Positions 34-20,438 of a stretch of DNA of 49,713 bases are shown in pieces. Within the stretch, counting starts at the first letter, position 1, and each line of letters starts with the position of its first letter. This DNA is from Melioribacter roseus (GTDB lineage Bacteria; Bacteroidota; Ignavibacteria; Ignavibacteriales; Melioribacteraceae), in assembly GCA_020724265.1 (NCBI GenBank), contig DYHH01000029.1:1-49713 (forward strand), read 5' to 3'. The translations under genes and the position numbers were made by a program. The notes beneath the pieces were generated by a model. The model saw only the letters and a list, made by a program, of their open reading frames with translations, did no database searches and was not told the origin of the DNA.

Positions 34-57
34 GGGTCATTTGGCACTATTTTATCA
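34..57 (-). repeat. T9SS-gene 3' end motif (variant copy)
   Basis: Read on the minus strand, the stop codon of the PQQ-like gene is embedded in AAATAGTGCCAAATGACC. This differs by two bases from AAATAGTATCAAATGACC, found at the ends of the T9SS genes finishing at 18804 and 49672. Further downstream on the minus strand, CTCAGG (33-28) and CCTGAG (6-1) could pair as the start of a terminator stem that runs off the window. Confidence 0.5.
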
Positions 58-1609
58 GCATCATCTTGCGGCTTAATCTTACTTGTTGAGATTCCAAAAC
101 ATAGATGTATACTCCGGTACTTAAGCTCTTATTCTCAAACACATACTCATAACTTCCCGCTTCTTTTTCGCCTTGGAAGAGTAGCTCTATCTCCTGTCCG
201 AGTAAGTTATAAATAGAAAGTTTTACTTCGCTTCTTACCGGGAGACTGAATTTTATTGTTGTACTCGGGTTAAATGGATTTGGATAATTTTGTTCTAATT
301 TATATTTGCTTGGTAGTTCGTCTTCTTTTATTGAGTTTGGGTTGTCTTTTATTGCGATTAGATTTTTTTGATTATTTGCTGACAAGGATTGGAGGTGTGT
401 CCCAATGTATAGCGTCCCATCTGAACCTATAGCGGGACAAGAATCATATTCATAACCTTCCAAATCAAATCTCCAAAGCAATTCACCATTCTTGTCCAAG
501 CAGTAGAAATATTTACCTCTAGTTGAACCAAAATAAATTTTCCCTTCAGCATCACTAACAAAGCCGTGATCTATTAGGGTCTCTGGCCATGAAAATTCCG
601 GGTCTATTACATATTTCCAAGTAAGGTTGCCATAATAATCTAATGAATATATTACACTAATATCTTTCCCGAGGTCATAATCATATTCCAAAGAATAAAA
701 TATAATATTCCCTTCAAAATCTATTGTTGGTGCTGAAAAGCTAAAATGAGCTCTAACAGGAAAACTCCACCGATGAGAACCATCAGAGTAAAAACTAAAC
801 AATGCATAATTATTAAGAGTATCACGCCCAAAAACATATATATTACCTCCATTATCAACTAAAGGCATTGAGAGCGGTAAATTATTAAACTTATTTTTCC
901 AAATTAAATTTCCAAGTGTATCTATTGCATTTAGATAATTATAAATGTCAGTTTGGTTTATTATTCCTGTATTTACATATAAAACATCACCCGTTGGAGA
1001 AAACGATATTGAATGATCAACTATCCCTTCATAATAATGCTTGGAAATTGTAACCCCATTAGAAGAATTTATTATATGCAGGGTATCTTTTTCGGCATAA
1101 AATATTTTTCCGCTCTTACTAATCGATATATTATGTTGAAATCCTGAAATAATTGGTTTTTTCCATTTTAACGTACCGTCATATCGTAAAGCATATAATG
1201 AGTACCCGGCTGCAGAACCAAAATATACCGTACTATCATAACCAACTGTAGGCCCGAGATTTGTAGGTCCAAAATGTCCGGTACTATATTTCCAATATAT
1301 TTCCCCATTGGGTGTTACTGAATAAAAAGCATTTGAACTATCAAAAGTGGCTGCACGTGTTCCAACATAAAGCATATCATTATATCCAATTACTGGACCA
1401 TACAAAACACCTAACGGTATGTCTTTGCGCCATATAACATTAGCAGTTTTGGGCCCAACAAATTCCGATCTGCCTGTACCTTGTGCATCTCCTCTTAAAA
1501 TCGGCCAGGGCGAATCTGCTAATGAAGGCCAGGGGATTTTTTCTTGGGTTTGGGAGAAGCATGTGTTTATTACGAAGAACATAAAAATCATCATAAATAT
1601 TTTTTTCAT
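47..1609 (-). CDS. Secreted PQQ-like beta-propeller protein with T9SS sorting domain
   Basis: 520 residues. The N-terminus is a signal peptide (MKKIFMMIFMFFVINTCFS, then QTQ). From about residue 35 to 430 there are repeated blades of the PQQ/WD-like type, with recurring patterns such as YVFGRDTLNNYALFSF, IYFGSTRGKYFYCLDKNG and LYIGTHLQSLSA. The last ~85 residues are a type A T9SS C-terminal domain with NYPNPFNPSTTIKFSLP and the ending SRKMMLIK, so the protein is probably exported by T9SS and anchored or released outside the outer membrane. The ligand and role are unknown. It lies 60 bp downstream of the fibronectin-III-like T9SS gene on the same strand. It is a paralogue of the gene at 18888-20438: the first ~50 residues and the sorting domain match closely, while the propeller body has diverged. 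The family call is strong; the function is not known. Confidence 0.9.
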   Translation of the reverse strand: MKKIFMMIFMFFVINTCFSQTQEKIPWPSLADSPWPILRGDAQGTGRSEFVGPKTANVIWRKDIPLGVLYGPVIGYNDMLYVGTRAATFDSSNAFYSVTPNGEIYWKYSTGHFGPTNLGPTVGYDSTVYFGSAAGYSLYALRYDGTLKWKKPIISGFQHNISISKSGKIFYAEKDTLHIINSSNGVTISKHYYEGIVDHSISFSPTGDVLYVNTGIINQTDIYNYLNAIDTLGNLIWKNKFNNLPLSMPLVDNGGNIYVFGRDTLNNYALFSFYSDGSHRWSFPVRAHFSFSAPTIDFEGNIIFYSLEYDYDLGKDISVIYSLDYYGNLTWKYVIDPEFSWPETLIDHGFVSDAEGKIYFGSTRGKYFYCLDKNGELLWRFDLEGYEYDSCPAIGSDGTLYIGTHLQSLSANNQKNLIAIKDNPNSIKEDELPSKYKLEQNYPNPFNPSTTIKFSLPVRSEVKLSIYNLLGQEIELLFQGEKEAGSYEYVFENKSLSTGVYIYVLESQQVRLSRKMMLIK

Positions 1610-1631
1610 TATACAACTCCAATATTTATCT

Positions 1632-1657
1632 GGGCACGCAGTATTACCTGCATGCCC
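1632..1657. terminator. Intercistronic hairpin inside the left T9SS cassette
   Basis: GGGCACGCAG and CTGCATGCCC form a 10-bp stem with one wobble pair around the 6-nt loop TATTAC. It sits in the 60-bp gap between the two left cassette genes. There is no U-run after it on the minus strand, so it may attenuate or stabilise mRNA rather than terminate fully. The right cassette has an unrelated-sequence hairpin at the same place (18838-18869). Confidence 0.6.
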
Positions 1658-1669
1658 ATTACATAAATT

Positions 1670-2796
1670 TTATTTTATTAATAAAAGTTTTCTTGAATCG
1701 GTATATTTACCTGCATTAATTATATAAATATAGATTCCGCTTGGCAGATTTTCAGCATTAAAATCCGTACTGTAAATGCCTGCTGTTTTGATCTCATTTA
1801 CTAACTCTGCAACTTCTTCACCTAAAGTATTAAATACTTTCAGAGTTACATGTTCATCACTTGGTAGCGAATATGATATTGTTGTTGTTGGATTGAATGG
1901 GTTTGGGTAGTTTTGAGATAAAGTATAGTTTAAGTCATTTTTATCTTGACTTCCTTCCTTTGCAGGATTCACTTTCATCGATGCCGTTTGGGTAAACTTG
2001 GATTCACGATTGCCATTAACTGCAACCATTTTATAATATATTGTTAACATATTTCCAGAAGCAAACTCCCAGTCAACCCAACTAGTAGCACCGGCACTTG
2101 TTGTAGCAACTTTTGAAAAAGGTCCAAAATCTGATGTACTTCTATAAATGGCATATCCAGTAACAAAATCATATGGGCTGGCAGAATGACTCCATGTTAC
2201 TTTCGGATGACTATTATATGTACTTAAATTATAATTATCGGGTTGAAGTGGTTCAAGTTCTTGGCTGCTATAACCGGTCCCAGGTTGCAATACCCATATT
2301 TTTGCATCAAGGGGTACTTCATTTTGGGTATATCTTATATAGAATTTATTATCATCAACACTATAGTCCAGTTTTAAATCACCCTGAAAATTTTCTGGTA
2401 ATGTTGATGTTCGATAATCAAGATAAAAATATTTTCTTTCGTTAGCGCCAATTTTTGCAGAAACTTTATACTGTCCCAGCGCGTAAACATGCGCCCCCGA
2501 TGGATTTGCCCAAACCGATGACCAATAAACTCGGAAATTAGTTGTTTGATAAGAACCATTATAGGAAGTAGTTAAATTATGCAAATCAAGATTAGGGTAA
2601 GGATGGGCATCCCAGCAAAGTGTATTTGGGACTAATTCAAGAGAGATGGTGATATCGAAATTCAGTGGATTATCAGTAATATAAAATATTAATTCTCCTG
2701 CTTCCAATGGAATCGATTGAGCTTTTACCGCAGAGAAATTACCCCCCCCCATAAAAGAATAAATAGTAATAATACTAAGTACTTTTTTATCTTGCA
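1670..2796 (-). CDS. Secreted fibronectin-III-like protein with T9SS sorting domain
   Basis: About 375 residues from the chosen start. The body has a ~90-residue fibronectin-type-III-like segment (HPKVTWSHSASPYDFVTGYA through YYKMVAVNGNRES), then a T9SS type A sorting domain with NYPNPFNPTTTISYSLP and the ending SRKLLLIK. The open frame extends upstream to 2851, but that stretch is promoter-like DNA shared with the right cassette. I therefore start at the ATG at 2796, which directly abuts AAGGAG (2802-2797). That spacing is too tight. The position at normal 7-nt spacing (2789-2787) reads ATA, where the right-hand paralogue has ATG. The reading frame crosses a G9 run at the signal-peptide end (complement of C9 at 2742-2750). 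The predicted leader MQDKKVLSIITIYSF is still hydrophobic. The start is uncertain; the family call is good. Confidence 0.8.
2742..2750 (-). repeat. Poly-G (G9) run in a signal-peptide coding region
   Basis: Nine consecutive C on the plus strand, that is G9 in the coding strand. The paralogue has G7 at the equivalent codons. In the leader frame shared by the two copies (KKYLVLLLFILLWGG), the downstream protein is in frame only with 7 or 10 G. With G9 the gene is open only from the out-of-frame ATG at 2796. Confidence 0.85.
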
Positions 2797-2826
2797 TCTC
2801 CTTAATTCTTAATGTTGTAATTGTCT

Positions 2827-2871
2827 GTCTCGAGACAAATGCAAGATGCAATAAAATTAAATTACAGTCAA
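2827..2871 (-). promoter_or_regulatory. Cassette promoter block with palindrome
   Basis: On the minus strand, TTGACT (2871-2866) is followed after 17 nt by CATCTTGCATTTG, then the perfect 10-bp palindrome GTCTCGAGAC (2836-2827), a possible operator. The right cassette has the same layout at 17573-17617 (TTGACA, 17 nt, CATCTTGCGTTTG, GTTTCGAGAC). Conservation of both spacing and sequence upstream of the paralogue supports a regulatory role. Which hexamer is the -10 is not certain. Confidence 0.5.
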
Positions 2872-2999
2872 GTTAATTTCTTTAGTATATCTTATTTTTA
2901 GGTGTTGTTTTTTGGACTTGTTATATGATTTGTTTTTATACACTAAATTTGCTATTAATTTTTGCTCATACACGTATTGAAATCTATGGTTCTTAAATG

Positions 3000-3181
3000 A
3001 AATCCCCGGGATTTTAAGAAACCTTCGAGGTAAGAGATTGTTGCTTAAGTTCTTTTTCCTCGAAGGTTGCTATGGTTGCCGATAACCTTGGAGGTCTAAA
3101 TCATGCGACCTCCAAGGTTTAATTTGTAGCCGCAGACTTCACGTCTGCGGTGGTAACCTTTCGATATTGCTAAAAGAATCT
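3000..3181 (+). repeat. Composite hairpin repeat, left copy
   Basis: In order: a block AAATCCCCGGGATTT; a 49-nt hairpin (3020-3068) with arms AACCTTCGAGG and CCTCGAAGGTT; an extra hairpin (3084-3119) with arms AACCTTGGAGGTC and GACCTCCAAGGTT; a hairpin (3130-3150) with arms CCGCAGAC and GTCTGCGG; and a tail close to TGGTAACCTTTCGATATTGC. Except for the extra hairpin, the same parts occur in the same order on the minus strand at 20708-20549. The 53 nt around the first hairpin differ at only two positions. The whole 2852-3244 gap has no gene. No transposase is associated. Confidence 0.8.
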
Positions 3182-3244
3182 GAGAAATTATAAACTACGA
3201 GCTAAATATGCACACAGACAAATGTTTGCAGTTACGATTGAAAT

Positions 3245-5515
3245 TTAACGGTAGTTACTAATCCACTGATCGATTGTCATTTTGAGGAAGTTGATAGAGA
3301 TTGGTTTTGCTATGTAGTCGTTAAGACCCGCAGCGAGACATTTTTCTCGATCTTTCATACTTGAATGAGCTGTTACTGCAATAACCGGAATTTTCTTCGA
3401 TTCACTTTCCAACTGTCTAATTTTTTGAGTTGCAGTAAGTCCGTCCATACCCGGCATTTCAATATCCATTAAAACAACATCATATCTTCCGGTTGAAACT
3501 GATTTAATAGCTTCTTCACCTGATGACACAGCGTCAACTTCATACCCAACACTTTTAAGAAGTTTTACTTCAACATTTTGGCTTATCGGGTTGTCTTCAA
3601 CTAATAGAATTCGTTTTTTATTACTATCTACATAAGTCGTCGCTTGATCGATAGCTTTTTTGAATTCTTTCTTTTCGTCAATTTCTTCAACAGGTTCTTC
3701 ATCAAAACCGTTTTCTCTTTCGCCGGTTGCAATCTTATCGTAATCTAATTTTTGTTCAACAATACTCGGTTTAGTACCAAGCTTTACGGTAAATTCAAAA
3801 GTTGTTCCTACTCCTAGTTCACTTTGAACATTAATATCACCGCCCATTAAGTTTGAGAACTCTTTACAAATTACGAGTCCCAGACCGGTTCCTTGTTTAT
3901 TAGAACGCAGACTATGTACTTGTGAAAACGGTCTAAACAACATTTTAAGATTATCTTTAGAAATTCCGGGCCCGGTATCTTTAATTGTTGTCTTAATTAC
4001 AACAACATTGTCCTTTTCTTCAATCATCTGAACAATAATATCAATCTGACCCCGTTCGGTATATTTAACTGCATTAGCTAGAAGATTTAACAGAATTTGT
4101 CTGAAACGTGCAGCATCACCGAATAATGTGGGGGGAATGGAATTATCAAATTCTTCACTGACTTTTATGTTCTTATCTTTCGCAGTCTGACTAATTATGG
4201 AAATTGCTTTGTCCATTTCTTTCTTAATGCTGAACTCAACTTCGTCAAGTTCCATCTTTCCGGCTTCAATCTTTGAAAGATCAAGAATATTATTAATTGT
4301 TTCTAACAGCGAATGAGCTGATAGTCTTCCGCTTCTAGCAAAGGTGGTTAATTCTTCTTTGTCTTCATATAAATTGTTTTCGATAAGATCAAGATAACCT
4401 AATATAGAATTCATCGGTGTTCGAATTTCGTGACTCATATTAGCAAGGAAACGGGTCTTAAAATTACTTTCTTCAATTGCTTTAGTTGCTGCTTGATCGG
4501 CTTTTATTTTTTCCATCTTAAGAGCATCAAGAGCTTTTTGTCTTTCGTATTCGGCTTGAACTTGCTGAGTTATGTCCTGCAAACTCCCTTCAAGATAAAG
4601 AGGATTTTCGTCGTCATCGGTAATTAATCTTATATTACCTTTAACTACTATATGTGTTCCGTCTTTTCTTTTAAGAACTAAGCGGTAGTTCTTAACTTTA
4701 CCTTGTTTGCTCAAAAGCTTCAATAATGTTTGCCTATCGGCGGGGCTTTTATAAATGTCTTTTTCAATATCTATTGATTTGGCTTCTTCCAAAGTTTTAA
4801 AGCCGAGCATTTTTACCAAAGCCGGGTTAGCAATTATAAACCTTCCGTCCAAGGAGGCTTGGTAAATTCCTTCTGCCGAGTTTTCAAATATATTTCTGAA
4901 TCTTTTTTCAGATGCAGCAACTTCAAACGTTTTAAATACAGCATCTCTTCTTAAACGATAGTTGATTGAACTTGCCGCAACTGCCATTGCACTTATAAAT
5001 AAAACAAGTAAGACAGACTCGAACATATTCGGCAGTGCATAAACTGCTCTATCGGTCATTAAAATTGAAGAGGCAAAAACAACATTGTAATAGATTGCAA
5101 CAATAATTTGGTTTGTTACTTCCCAACTTAAAAACAAAGCAGCCGTAAAAATTATTAAGCTTATGATGTGAGAATTAAATACAACCGTATCGGGGATTAA
5201 ATAGATTATTATTCCGAATGAAGCAATAATAGTTAAAAGAAGAATATGTACTAAACCAACCGGATGATTTTTCCCGAACTTGCTGTTTGAAATTAACAGC
5301 AAAATGAAAGCGACAAGAATAGCCCCCAGTCGCGATAGATAAACTTCAATCGAATGTTCGGAAAAGTATCTTACTTCGAATATTAGTGCAAAAAGACCGG
5401 CAACAGCGGTAAATTTTGCAAGCGCTCTAAACGGAGCCAACAACATTCGGTTGCTTTCTTCTCGAAAATACCGGTATTTATATGCTTTTTCGGAAGTGAT
5501 TTTTATTTCAGACAA
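3245..5515 (-). CDS. Hybrid sensor histidine kinase/response regulator
   Basis: 756 residues. Several membrane segments occupy residues ~30-190, followed by a PAS domain (~203-315, RFRNIFENSAEGIYQ), a short coiled linker, a HisKA dimerisation domain with the phospho-acceptor in FLANMSHEIRTPMN (His362) and a HATPase domain. The HATPase has the N box LLNLLANAVKYT, the G1 box DTGPGIS, the F box LFRPFSQ and the G2 box GTGLGL. A C-terminal receiver (~633-752) has the phosphorylatable Asp684 in VLMDIEMPGMDG and the conserved Lys in AKPIS. All catalytic residues are present, so an active inner-membrane phosphorelay protein is expected. No DNA-binding partner or Hpt protein is adjacent, and the signal is unknown. 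It is transcribed divergently from the PAP2 gene across a 138-bp gap. Confidence 0.95.
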   Translation of the reverse strand: MSEIKITSEKAYKYRYFREESNRMLLAPFRALAKFTAVAGLFALIFEVRYFSEHSIEVYLSRLGAILVAFILLLISNSKFGKNHPVGLVHILLLTIIASFGIIIYLIPDTVVFNSHIISLIIFTAALFLSWEVTNQIIVAIYYNVVFASSILMTDRAVYALPNMFESVLLVLFISAMAVAASSINYRLRRDAVFKTFEVAASEKRFRNIFENSAEGIYQASLDGRFIIANPALVKMLGFKTLEEAKSIDIEKDIYKSPADRQTLLKLLSKQGKVKNYRLVLKRKDGTHIVVKGNIRLITDDDENPLYLEGSLQDITQQVQAEYERQKALDALKMEKIKADQAATKAIEESNFKTRFLANMSHEIRTPMNSILGYLDLIENNLYEDKEELTTFARSGRLSAHSLLETINNILDLSKIEAGKMELDEVEFSIKKEMDKAISIISQTAKDKNIKVSEEFDNSIPPTLFGDAARFRQILLNLLANAVKYTERGQIDIIVQMIEEKDNVVVIKTTIKDTGPGISKDNLKMLFRPFSQVHSLRSNKQGTGLGLVICKEFSNLMGGDINVQSELGVGTTFEFTVKLGTKPSIVEQKLDYDKIATGERENGFDEEPVEEIDEKKEFKKAIDQATTYVDSNKKRILLVEDNPISQNVEVKLLKSVGYEVDAVSSGEEAIKSVSTGRYDVVLMDIEMPGMDGLTATQKIRQLESESKKIPVIAVTAHSSMKDREKCLAAGLNDYIAKPISINFLKMTIDQWISNYR

Positions 5516-5653
5516 TTTTGAACCACACAGTTTTAATCGAAAAGTAAATTAACAAATTTTATTGTTATTAATAAAGTGTTTCGTTAAATATATTGGAATA
5601 AGTAATTCGTATAGCGTAACTTAATAATAATTAAATTAATTTTTGTGATATAT

Positions 5654-6211
5654 ATGATTGACTTTTTGTATCAAATAGATATTGCCGTTTTTTATTTCTT
5701 TAATCACACTTTATCAAACACACTTTTTGATAAATTTTTTCCTTTTATAACAGATGTTAAACACTGGTATATAACTTATGTCATTTTAATTCTGTTACTG
5801 ATTATTAAAGGAAAGAAATTAGAACGTATTTCCGCCGGATTTGTAATTTTATTAATTACAGCAACGGATCAATTCAGTTCGTTCTTTGTAAAGAATTTAG
5901 TGGGAAGAATAAGACCTTGTAATGAACTACCCGATGTAAATATATTAGCAGGATGTACAGGCTCGTTTTCTTTCCCGTCATCGCATGCAGTTAATAATTT
6001 TGCGGTTGCGGTTTTCTTTTCGATTTTATTCCCGAAATATAAATGGGCATTTTACATAATTGCTGTGTTACTTGCCTTATCGCGTGTTTATGTTGGTGTT
6101 CATTATCCGTCGGATATCATCGGCGGAGCATTAATCGGCTCAGTATTCGGATTTATATTTGCTAAAGCTGTTTTGTTTATTAATAATTTTTTCACATTAA
6201 AAAAACAATAA
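5654..6211 (+). CDS. PAP2-family membrane phosphatase
   Basis: About 185 residues with five to six hydrophobic segments. All three phosphatase signature motifs are visible: KNLVGRIRP, PSSHAVN and SRVYVGVHYPSDIIGG, with the catalytic histidines in the last two. Members dephosphorylate lipid phosphates such as phosphatidic acid or undecaprenyl pyrophosphate at the outer face of the inner membrane; the substrate cannot be told from sequence. I prefer the ATG at 5654 to the GTG at 5645; neither has a clear Shine-Dalgarno. The next gene starts 1 bp after the stop, so the two are probably co-transcribed. Confidence 0.9.
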   Translation: MIDFLYQIDIAVFYFFNHTLSNTLFDKFFPFITDVKHWYITYVILILLLIIKGKKLERISAGFVILLITATDQFSSFFVKNLVGRIRPCNELPDVNILAGCTGSFSFPSSHAVNNFAVAVFFSILFPKYKWAFYIIAVLLALSRVYVGVHYPSDIIGGALIGSVFGFIFAKAVLFINNFFTLKKQ

Positions 6212-6212
6212 A

Positions 6213-6986
6213 ATGAAAACTAAACTTGATATTGCAAAAAATTGGCTGCCACGATATACCGGAACGGAAATTGACGAGTTCGGTGATTATATGCTACTTA
6301 CTAATTTTCATGATTATGTAACTAAGTTTGCGGAATTATTTAAATGCGAAGTTAATGGTCTTAATAAACCGATGCAGACAGCAACAAACAACAAAGGGCT
6401 TTCAATAATCAATTTTGGAATAGGATCGGCAAATGCAGCAACAATAATGGATTTACTAATTGCAAGAAATCCAAAAGGTGTTCTGTTCTTAGGCAAATGC
6501 GGCGGGTTGAAACGTTCAACAGAACTTGGACATTTTATACTTCCTATTGCTGCAATAAGAGGTGAAGGTACTTCAAACGATTATATGCCGCCGGAAGTTC
6601 CGGCTCTTCCTTCATTTAAGCTGCACAAATTTGTTTCAAATATAATTATTAATAGGAAACTTGAATACAGAACAGGGGTTATATATACAACGAACCGAAG
6701 ACTTTGGGAATGGGATAAAAATTTCAAAAAGTATCTTCGAACTTTAGGGGCTATCGGTATTGATATGGAAACGGCAACTTTGTTTATTGCAGGTTACAAG
6801 AACCAAATAGCACGAGGTGCGCTTCTGCTTGTTTCCGATTTGCCGATGATGGCTGAAGGCATTAAAACCGGTGAATCCGATAAATTAGTTACTAAAAAGT
6901 TTGTTGACCTTCACCTTCAAATCGGTATTGAAGCTATGAGTGATATTGGAAACAAAGGTGAGCAAATTAAACATTTTATGTATTAG
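6213..6986 (+). CDS. amn: AMP nucleosidase (short form)
   Basis: 257 residues, matching the short AMP nucleosidases of Bacteroidota, which belong to the purine nucleoside phosphorylase fold. The family hydrolyses AMP to adenine and ribose 5-phosphate in the cytoplasm. Visible features are the nucleoside-binding core INFGIGSANAATIMDLL, the GVLFLGKCGGLK loop, and the C-terminal IDMETATLFIAG segment whose Met-Glu recognises ribose, followed by LLVSDLPM with the purine-site Asp. The start lies 1 bp after the PAP2 stop. Purine salvage or adenylate-pool control is the expected role. A less specific phosphorylase-family nucleosidase is the alternative. Confidence 0.82.
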   Translation: MKTKLDIAKNWLPRYTGTEIDEFGDYMLLTNFHDYVTKFAELFKCEVNGLNKPMQTATNNKGLSIINFGIGSANAATIMDLLIARNPKGVLFLGKCGGLKRSTELGHFILPIAAIRGEGTSNDYMPPEVPALPSFKLHKFVSNIIINRKLEYRTGVIYTTNRRLWEWDKNFKKYLRTLGAIGIDMETATLFIAGYKNQIARGALLLVSDLPMMAEGIKTGESDKLVTKKFVDLHLQIGIEAMSDIGNKGEQIKHFMY

Positions 6987-17653: not shown

Positions 17654-18804
17654 ATGAAAAAGTACTTAGTATTATTACTATTTATTCTTTTATGGGGGGG
17701 TATGCACAAACAACATTAACTAATTATGAAGAGTTCTTTATCTGGGTAATTAATAATACAAATAGACATGAAATAAAATTATATGCTGAACTAATTAGTG
17801 AACCTTATGTGGAGTGTTGGGATGTTGTAAGCAGAGATTGGGGACCTGGATGGGAAGATCATCATCCATTAACAGCAAAATATCCTGGAGGTTTAAGTGA
17901 AGGGTCAACTAATAAAGCAGATGGTTATTTTGGCGTTGACTATGCTTACGATGACCAAGGGAACTCACCACTTTTAGGTCTTGGTAAATATAGAATTACA
18001 ATCTATGAAAATGGTACACCAACAGACGCAGTTATGTTTTTTGATTTGAGAACTGGCCATTTAGGTGAGCAGATTAGTACTCCAGATGTAACGTTTTATT
18101 ATGATGCTACAGATAAAAAAATTTATTATGATCGATATAACAAAGAAATTGTTACAAGCGAAACTATATGGAATATGCGTGATAATGTTTATTTAATCCC
18201 CACAGAGTTAGAACCATTCCCTCCAGAATCCTTCAATGTAGGTTCAGCTAATAATCACCCAATGCTTACTTGGAGTCATACACCGATGGAGGATACATAT
18301 AGAACAGGATATGCTCTCTACAGGGCTTATGGTCCTATTGGTAATCCAACTACTTCTTTTCACAAGTTTGCTACTGTTGGAAAATATACGACGTCCTACG
18401 TTGATTATAGTTTTGACTTAGGCTCAATGTGGACTGTATATTATAAAATGACAGCGATAAACGGAAGTAGAGAATCAGTTTTTACCCCTACAAAAAGTAT
18501 TAATATAGCTATTCCGAAAACCGGGGAAGATTCAAAAGAGATTGTTTTTTCGCTTAATCAAAACTATCCAAACCCATTTAATCCAACAACAACAATTTCA
18601 TATTCAATTCCAAGTGATGAACATGTTACATTAAAAGTGTATAACACATTAGGTGAAGAGGTTGCCGAGCTAGTAAACGAGGTAAAAATAGCAGGTGTCT
18701 ATAGCACAGATTTTAATGCTGAAAATCTGCCAAGCGGTATTTATTTTTATACTATCGCTGCTGGTAAATATACCAACACTAAAAAGTTATTGTTAATCAA
18801 ATAG
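17654..18804 (+). CDS. Secreted fibronectin-III-like T9SS protein, leader out of frame
   Basis: The natural start at 17654 (ribosome site GGAG, 7 nt spacing) gives a classic signal peptide, MKKYLVLLLFILLWGG. A G7 run at 17694-17700 then throws the frame off, and translation would stop 22 codons in. One extra G would continue as YAQTTLTNYEEFF into the mature protein, which is open to 18804. As it stands, only a leaderless product from the ATG at 17692 is in frame. The body has an fn3-like part (HPMLTWSHTPMEDTYRTGYA; VYYKMTAINGSRES) and a type A sorting domain (NYPNPFNPTTTISYSIP, ending KKLLLIK). It is the paralogue of 1670-2796. Either a phase-off allele or a one-base sequencing error. Confidence 0.8.
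17694..17700 (+). repeat. Poly-G (G7) run in a signal-peptide coding region
   Basis: Seven G at the end of the leader codons. In frame with the mature protein this tract would need 8 (or 5) G. The equivalent tract of the left paralogue is G9, so the length differs between copies while the flanking DNA (AAAAGTACTTAGTATTATTA and beyond) is almost identical. Confidence 0.85.
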
Positions 18805-18816: not shown

Positions 18817-18837
18817 TAATCATGAAATAATTCTAAG

Positions 18838-18871
18838 AACACGGCATATCTTTTTCGAAATGCCGTGTTTT
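18838..18871 (+). terminator. Intercistronic hairpin inside the right T9SS cassette
   Basis: AACACGGCAT and ATGCCGTGTT form a perfect 10-bp stem with a 12-nt loop, followed by TTTTAG. It has the form of a weak rho-independent terminator placed between the two cassette genes, 16 nt before the next ATG. It could uncouple expression of the second gene from the first. Confidence 0.7.
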
Positions 18872-18887
18872 AGCGAGGAATTAAACT

Positions 18888-20438
18888 ATGAAAAATATTA
18901 AATCATTTTTACTACTTATAATGTTATTAAATATTGTATCCTTTTCACAAACACAAGAAAAAATACCGTGGTCATCACTAGCAGATTCACCATGGCCTGT
19001 ATTGCGAGGAGATGTGCAAGGAACAAAGCGTTCTATAAATGTAGGCCCAAAAACTCCGAATATCATTTGGAAAAAAACCTATCCAACAGGTATCGTAAAT
19101 GGTCCAGTGCTAGATGAAAACGGAAGATTATACTTTGGTTCAAGAACAGCTCCTTTTTCAGCTACTGAGAATAACTTTTATTGTATCGATTCAGAAGGTG
19201 AAGAATTTTGGAGATACCCAACTCCAACTTTCCTTGCAACTGATACAGCACCATTGATATCAAAAGATGGGACAATTTATTTTGCTTCTCAAAATACGCA
19301 CTTCTATGCTCTTAATCCTGACGGGACATTAAAATGGAATTATAATTCGGAAAATAGATTTTTTTCCCGAAATTTAATCTCGGATAAAGAAGGTAATATT
19401 TATGCAGGTAACATTGACTCACTTTTTTGTTTTACACCGGAAGGAACTGTAAAATTCAAAAAATTTATTGAGCCTTATTTTAGTTCACCTACTGTTTTTT
19501 CACCTTCAGGGGATAGATTTTATTTGTTCAACAATTTTTATAAAGATGATATTTATACTGATTACTTACTAGCAATTGACCTTGAAGGAGAAACAATTTG
19601 GAAAAAGAAGTTTGCCGATTTAGTAGGAGATTCCTTCCTTGTAGATAACAGTGGTAAGATTTACGTTATGGGTAAAGAGTTAGAGGATTCAACCAAATAT
19701 CGTGGTATAATCTGTTTAGATGAAGATGGTAGTACAATTTGGAAATCTAATTTTTATGAAAGTGACAACCAAGGAAGTCCCACTATGGATAAATATGGAA
19801 ATATTATATACCCAATTTATAACGGACTAGCATCAATTGATTATGATGGAAATCCTCGCTGGGTTTTCGAAGTTGAGATTGATAGTAGTTATATTCATCC
19901 GATTGAAGGATTTATTCATTCATTAATTTGTGATGACGAAGGGACAGTATTTGCTGGTTCTACACTTGGAAATTTTTTCTATGCAATAAGTAGCGAAGGT
20001 GAATTGCTATGGAAAATTCCATTATTCGGACAATTTTCTGATGCACCTGCTGTGATAACTGAGGATGGAACACTTTACATAGGTCTTTCTTATGGCTTTG
20101 GTGGTATCCCAGTTGTTGATAATCTAATCGCAATAAAAGACAATCCAAACTCAATAAAAGAAGAAGAGCTGCCAAGTGAATATAAATTAGAACAAAACTA
20201 TCCAAATCCATTTAACCCAAGTACAACAATAAAATTCAGTCTGCCGGAAAGAAGTGAAGTAAAACTTTCTATTTATAACTTACTCGGGCAAGAAATAGAG
20301 GTACTCTTCCAAGGCGAAAAAGAAGCTGGAAGTTATGAGTATGTATTTGAGAATAAGAGCTTAAGTACGGGAGTGTACTTTTACGTTTTGGAATCTAAGC
20401 AAGTAAGATTAAGTCGCAAGATGTTGCTGATAAAATAG
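18888..20438 (+). CDS. Secreted PQQ-like beta-propeller protein with T9SS sorting domain
   Basis: 516 residues, with a GAGG ribosome site 8 nt before the ATG. A signal peptide (MKNIKSFLLLIMLLNIVSFS) is followed by QTQEKIPWSSLADSPWP, nearly identical to the left paralogue. PQQ-type blades fill residues ~45-420 (IYFASQNTHFYALNPDGTLK; VFAGSTLGNFFYAISSEGEL; LYIGLSYGFGG). The type A T9SS domain at the end (NYPNPFNPSTTIKFSLP, ending SRKMLLIK) is ~90% identical to that of the 47-1609 protein, while the blades are much more diverged. An extracellular or surface location is expected; the ligand is unknown. It is the second gene of the right cassette. Confidence 0.9.
   Translation: MKNIKSFLLLIMLLNIVSFSQTQEKIPWSSLADSPWPVLRGDVQGTKRSINVGPKTPNIIWKKTYPTGIVNGPVLDENGRLYFGSRTAPFSATENNFYCIDSEGEEFWRYPTPTFLATDTAPLISKDGTIYFASQNTHFYALNPDGTLKWNYNSENRFFSRNLISDKEGNIYAGNIDSLFCFTPEGTVKFKKFIEPYFSSPTVFSPSGDRFYLFNNFYKDDIYTDYLLAIDLEGETIWKKKFADLVGDSFLVDNSGKIYVMGKELEDSTKYRGIICLDEDGSTIWKSNFYESDNQGSPTMDKYGNIIYPIYNGLASIDYDGNPRWVFEVEIDSSYIHPIEGFIHSLICDDEGTVFAGSTLGNFFYAISSEGELLWKIPLFGQFSDAPAVITEDGTLYIGLSYGFGGIPVVDNLIAIKDNPNSIKEEELPSEYKLEQNYPNPFNPSTTIKFSLPERSEVKLSIYNLLGQEIEVLFQGEKEAGSYEYVFENKSLSTGVYFYVLESKQVRLSRKMLLIK

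Follow-up and report, generated by a model that had tools for sequence, protein, structure and literature searches.

The window analysed here, a stretch of 49,713 nucleotides from an assembly assigned to Melioribacter roseus, carries a left and a right copy of a gene whose leader ends in a run of guanines. On balance, the data favour a small family of type IX-secreted proteins with a phase-variable poly-G leader, the left copy being silenced or attenuated by an ATA codon in the place of its start. As far as sequence comparison can tell, it is very likely that the poly-G tract in the export signal switches the secreted protein on and off, and the ATA of the left copy looks more like loss of the normal start than like repair. 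In this model, the Sec leader of the family would end in the poly-G tract (Leu-Trp-Gly-Gly) and replication slippage at the tract would alter its length and so decide whether the mature protein is read in register with the start codon or not. The result would be a contingency switch, for which we infer reversible phase variation within populations. In the left copy, the change of the normal start to ATA would have left the gene silenced or strongly attenuated at present.

The left gene (1670-2797, minus strand) encodes Fn3/Ig-like domains and a type IX C-terminal sorting domain, in a frame joined by the G9 tract. Read in its own direction, it opens with a ribosome-binding-site-like AAGGAG, identified by eye (2803-2798), which directly adjoins an ATG (2797-2795); then come CAAG, the ATA (2790-2788), the leader and the G9 tract (2750-2742), which is G11 and G8 in the orthologues. 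The ATA lies 7 nt from the AAGGAG, and the distance from the upstream ATG to the ATA is likewise 7 nt. A 5' region conserved among paralogues (2820-2878, minus strand), with TTGAC at 2871-2867, resembles a promoter and may act as one. A preliminary description of the locus had reported the ATA, which is real although it had been placed one nucleotide off, at 2789-2787, and had contrasted it with the ATG of the right paralogue, which was found at 17654-17656 (plus strand) in front of the same leader. It had also proposed that G9 returns the frame of the upstream ATG to the mature protein, and this holds: the frame, MQDKKVLSIITIYSFMGGGNFSAVKAQSIP..., is open throughout, through G9 to the stop at 1670, and its product starts MQDKKVLSIITIYSFMGGGNFSAVKAQSIPLE..., with MQDKKVLSIITIYSFMGGGNFSAVKA as the shifted-frame leader. 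The ATA frame closes shortly past G9 (...LLWGGVISLR, then a stop). The role of the G tract in setting the frame is now backed by tract lengths across the family leaders and by the orthologue comparison, both of which go beyond the data of that description. Two other starts were rejected. An ATG within the tract (2752-2750) is in frame at G9 but would have neither a ribosome-binding site nor a remaining signal peptide, and TTG 2851, the choice of the ORF finder, lies inside the promoter-like region and was discarded by inference only.

A 38-nt leader piece, made up of 34 nt and the first four G of the tract, is present in three copies in the own genome with zero mismatches, at the left gene, at the right gene and at positions 76542-76579 of a further contig (G000:C50), where the tracts are G9, G7 and G7, respectively. 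The right paralogue, with its G7 at 17694-17700 (plus strand) out of register with its own start, reads MKKYLVLLLFILLWGGMHKQH and a stop in the start frame, and the third copy (ATG and G7) reads MKKYLVLLLFILLWGGNC and two consecutive stops. A search of 58 relatives with this leader piece, at up to three mismatches, matched three genomes (the own genome, G002 and G003), all from one genus. G002, a single 3.74-Mb contig, carries three family copies, the first (G11) and the third (G7) being out of register and the second (G9) in register, and G003 carries one (G8, out of register); the leader of the copy in G001 falls past a contig end, and the sequence of this copy holds a TAA. The genus total is eight copies with seven visible leaders, all with tracts of G7 to G11. 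A single one of the seven shares the register of the normal start, and the six others meet stops soon after the tract. The motif TTATGGGGGGG (TTATG7) gave seven matches across the four genomes of the genus (3, 3, 1 and 0), all of them at family leaders. Separate tracts of at least seven G, counted after merging overlapping matches by hand, number 21 in the 3.77 Mb of the own genome and 10 each in G002 and G003, and GGG accounts for 63 of the 840 glycine codons (7.5%) in the 32 ORFs of the window. Judged from these sequences, the poly-G leaders are neither a product of chance nor generic homopolymer noise. In automatic annotation, six of the seven copies would appear broken or be given a late start, which makes the family easy to miss.

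Direct evidence on the behavior of the tract came from G002 and G003, as assemblies compared and not as reads. Their orthologues of the left gene differ by one substitution in the 1068 nt of the mature gene, with tracts of G11 and G8. An alignment of 15.9 kb around them showed 260 mismatches and three gap blocks, namely the poly-G tract itself and gaps of 1 nt and 23 nt, the latter two 6 kb from the tract. Among 13 other homopolymers of G002, 11 had the same length in G003, one of them a G7 within the beta-propeller gene; the two lacking a G003 counterpart were changed by substitution, since no gap occurs there. It is thus the poly-G tract itself that appears unstable. A comparison of the mature part of the left gene with that of its orthologue in G002 (dN 0.090, dS 0.769, 356 codons) indicates that the mature gene is under purifying selection, though in both assembled leaders the family start is out of register with the mature frame. 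Pseudogene decay is ruled out for the mature part by this dN/dS, a value which covers the left/G002 pair and not the ATA lineage alone. Taken together, four attributes of poly-G contingency loci were found: at least seven G near the coding 5' end, length variation with stable flanks, truncation and selection.

The prevalence of out-of-register tracts (six of seven) counts against a replication switch and would also be allowed if polymerase or ribosome slipped at the G tract during expression, giving some in-register product at any DNA length and low-level expression of all copies. Purifying selection on the mature gene of the tested copy, with one tract in seven in register, is likewise in keeping with this explanation. 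However, if a third of the tracts were expected in register, the chance of finding at most one in seven would be about 0.26 (hand arithmetic), and the excess of out-of-register copies is therefore not significant. Moreover, the second copy of G002 is simply in register, and tract length differs between near-identical genomes. Expression-time slippage as the main explanation is thereby considered very improbable.

Concerning the start of the left gene, the preliminary description had proposed two linked changes, a new ATG and a tract length that keep the product open after loss of the old start, as either compensatory evolution or coincidence plus base error. The ATG does lie 7 nt 5' of the ATA, but it is not new. 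The aligned leaders read GGAG ATG TAA G ATG in the two sister orthologues, GGAG TTG CAA G ATG in the third copy of the own genome and GGAG ATG CAA G ATA in the left copy. The ATG abutting the Shine-Dalgarno motif is therefore found in the G002 and G003 orthologues too, where TAA closes it immediately, and the third own-genome copy has TTG CAA at its position. Because ATG is common to the orthologues and CAA to the third copy, only the change from ATG to ATA is private to the left copy; and as ATG and CAA each occur separately in relatives, neither arose as a response to the loss of the start. No replacement ATG arising together with this loss was seen in the leader alignment, and compensation by two linked changes appears weakly supported. 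ATA is a poor start codon. The upstream ATG is at best a weak start, an old triplet embedded beside the ribosome-binding site, and that its frame fits G9 is no more than the chance of one in three that holds for any tract length. The most probable outcome for now is a left copy that is silent or strongly attenuated.

The family-start ATG is present in the six other family leaders seen, the left one alone having ATA, and one may ask whether the start is really ATG, the tract miscounted, or both, which would make the left copy an ordinary phase-variable copy. Homopolymers are error-prone and the own assembly consists of 56 contigs. On the other hand, a single-base A/G error is atypical of homopolymer errors, and neighbouring homopolymers agree between G002 and G003, an agreement that tests these two assemblies and not the own one. 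A sequencing or assembly error seems distinctly improbable.

Alternatively, the switch may have been re-phased: the left copy would start at the upstream ATG, its shifted-frame leader would be a working signal peptide and the 'on' register would have moved to the present tract length. From 2797 onwards the frame indeed passes G9 and meets no stop before the one at 1670, helped by the CAA after the ATG, which an open frame requires. The shifted leader also keeps two lysines (KK), a hydrophobic stretch and an A-x-A cleavage site followed by Q (SAVKA before Q); its export is therefore possible, which counts against our preferred explanation. The position of the ATG is less favourable. Its spacer to AAGGAG is 0, or 2 by a looser leftmost-motif rule that gives 9 for the ATA, as against 3 to 13 nt in the 15 of 32 window ORFs with a ribosome-binding-site-like motif (14 of the 15 within 3 to 9), a survey that is rough as ORF starts were set mechanically; the upstream ATG is thus closer than the distances found in the window. 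Spacing rules may be loose here, given that half or more of the window ORFs are without a clear ribosome-binding site. The hydrophobicity of the shifted leader, which the preliminary description had noted, is retained but modest. Its best 11-residue Kyte-Doolittle hydropathy (2.05) is the lowest among 29 compared leader rows, the other 28, from leaders of sorting-domain proteins, ranging from 2.38 to 3.57 (four rows are repeats); these values are biased upwards by a script that chose the most hydrophobic candidate start per ORF. The canonical leader reaches 3.0, and in the own genome it is either out of register or without ATG. When the same +2 shift was applied to the 29 leaders, 14 stayed open for 16 codons and three, from two distinct genes, reached 2.0: a shifted frame is often open, and one that is also hydrophobic is less usual, though not exceptional. 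With the separate occurrence of ATG and CAA in relatives also speaking against it, a re-phased switch is regarded as rather unlikely.

Loss of the normal start in a phase-variable family remains our preferred reading. Downstream of the left gene lies a PQQ_2/BamB-like beta-propeller gene with its own type IX sorting domain (47-1609, minus strand), and the right cassette has a beta-propeller gene in the same place (18888-20438, plus strand). Hairpins separate the paired genes in the left cassette (1631-1658, minus strand; -22.4 kcal/mol for the stretch, z -4.19), in the right one (18836-18871, plus strand; -23.1 kcal/mol, z -4.33) and in the third own-genome cassette (-26.2 kcal/mol, z -4.0). 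In all six copies listed with their surroundings, a beta-propeller gene carrying a sorting domain of its own comes next downstream, and behind the third copy there are two. These two (3103-4698 and 4782-6377 of locus L024) are tandem and near-identical, differing mainly in a central stretch. The two beta-propeller genes of the window share matching N-terminal motifs (WPSLADSPWP/WSSLADSPWP..RGD.QGT) and have ordinary leaders, free of poly-G tracts, that end in S before QTQEK.

The left cassette matches the first one of G002 at 83.9% over a stretch that includes 137 nt ahead of the leader core and runs as far as the end of the beta-propeller gene, 46 nt short of the window end. Their upstream neighbours differ, a histidine kinase gene in one case and an esterase-like gene in the other, and the left cassette has therefore moved or been exchanged. 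The right cassette and the third of G002 are flanked by the same glycosyltransferase genes, but their proteins have diverged strongly (dN 0.72). Copies within one genome resemble each other more in the promoter-leader piece than in the genes that follow it: the left and third copies are 92.6% identical in this piece over 338 nt, and the second and third G002 copies 91.0% over 212 nt, as against 30-38% identity of the paralogue N-domains to the left one. From this we infer that the switch module may have been exchanged between copies.

The sorting domains of the left and right proteins score above curated cut-offs (PF18962 at 3.3e-10 and 2.1e-11, TIGR04183 at 4.5e-10 and 1.6e-11, respectively) and are of type A (TIGR04183/PF18962); the mature frame of the right paralogue, with its sorting domain, covers 17701-18804 (plus strand). 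The search for type IX machinery addressed one component, SprA, whose SprA_N profile matched the own genome (G000, 1.3e-48) and G002, and none of 14 control genomes. The structure model of the left protein is all-beta (pLDDT 70.6, pTM 0.52). Foldseek returned 334 PDB matches at E<=0.001, with Fn3/Ig-domain chains at the top; the query TM was at most 0.26 in the best 50 of 334, and therefore only a general beta-sandwich reading was kept. An A-x-A site followed by Q, or A followed by Q, was recognised by eye past the tract in five of the seven mature frames (left, right, the two orthologues of left and the third of G002). According to a published survey, Gln follows signal-peptidase cleavage at a rate of 77% in Ignavibacterium album (PMC5837995), a rate which, with these sites, supports the in-register reading as the real one. 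An Rfam scan of the window gave no match.

Beyond the genus, poly-G leaders were scarce. A motif search for at least eight G matched six of 79 genomes of the taxonomic family, those in G002 and G003 at the poly-G leader genes; the matches in G010, G080, G090 and G097, judged from the matched letters, are not leaders: G090 has an open reading that is not hydrophobic, and the other three have stops in frame. TATG7 matched nine of 391 genomes of the class, with eight matches outside the genus. Six of these eight are not leaders (in-frame stops or non-hydrophobic readings, four being judged from matched letters only) and two are leader-like, in register in G294 and out of register in G174. The former (L157) has G8 and reads MKKISLLLFVALIWGG... 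in register, ahead of a protein that looks LysM-like; the latter (L155) has G9 in a leader-like reading that is out of register and whose hydrophobic continuation has A/S-Q. They are perhaps independent poly-G leaders. Among 11 distant-homologue loci scanned by script, the right ORF was picked in five (L123, L124, L126, L128 and L143), and these have no run of at least six G in their first 250 nt. A search of a genome-contig database returned two loci, one from the Ignavibacteriales bacterium SURF_28 MAG and a weak partial match. A broader hypothesis would treat promoter, leader and poly-G tract as a shared module copied between cassettes, with a leader exportable in two frames, so that start loss re-phases the switch and copies are 'on' at different lengths, poly-G leaders having perhaps more than one origin in the class (G174, G294); as a whole, this is thought quite unlikely.

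Other poly-G tracts were encountered in the own genome. A G9 lies inside a methyltransferase-like gene (G000:C12:62708-62716; L083:1809-1817), the Methyltransf_11 match continuing in another frame (4.3e-11, from profile position 12 on), and this is possibly a second phase-variable gene. A G13 (G000:C5:279239-279251; L080:2440-2452) is located just downstream of a promoter-like stretch containing TTGACA, 72 nt before an open frame of 793 codons and about 40 nt from the contig end, and may represent a promoter-located tract. Additionally, an intergenic repeat of about 130 nt with a central poly-G (9, 12, 8, 9 and 9 in L081, L085, L086, L091 and L093) occurs in the own genome, G002 and G003.

Most known examples of repeat-driven phase variation come from host-associated bacteria. 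If our reading is correct, surface bet-hedging by a leader poly-G tract also occurs without an animal host, in environmental Ignavibacteriales and with type IX cargo paired to a beta-propeller, where it might serve against phages or for attachment. Among the full-text papers searched, none joined 'ignavibacteri' and 'phase variation', and of four papers on slippage in Bacteroidetes none had a title on poly-G leader switching. The mechanism is ordinary and its location new; the poly-G leader family is the stronger part of the results, the compensatory start and frame change the weaker one.

A poly-G tract in the signal-peptide region is known from pilC of Neisseria, a different protein family from the Ignavibacteriales leaders. 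The opa genes of Neisseria (PMC3960869) offer a likeness of mechanism and not of protein-family membership: a CTCTT repeat in the leader-peptide region of a surface or secreted protein gene acts as an on/off frameshift switch, and several paralogues per genome each have their own repeat number. Unlike the opa genes, the present family has a tract of the single base G as its repeat and a cargo that bears a type IX sorting domain in place of an outer-membrane barrel, and it belongs to an environmental, uncultured bacterium of the Ignavibacteriales. Contingency genes of Campylobacter and Helicobacter (PMC4965091, PMC2823697) similarly have intragenic G or C tracts of at least seven bases with frameshift consequences; they belong to another phylum and gene family, whereas here the tract forms the end of the signal peptide and the switching is deduced. 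Finally, the proteins resemble usual type IX cargo with a type A sorting domain (TIGR04183/PF18962) in their C-terminal domain and in the presence of SprA in the genome, and would differ from it by a phase-variable leader and a paired beta-propeller gene.
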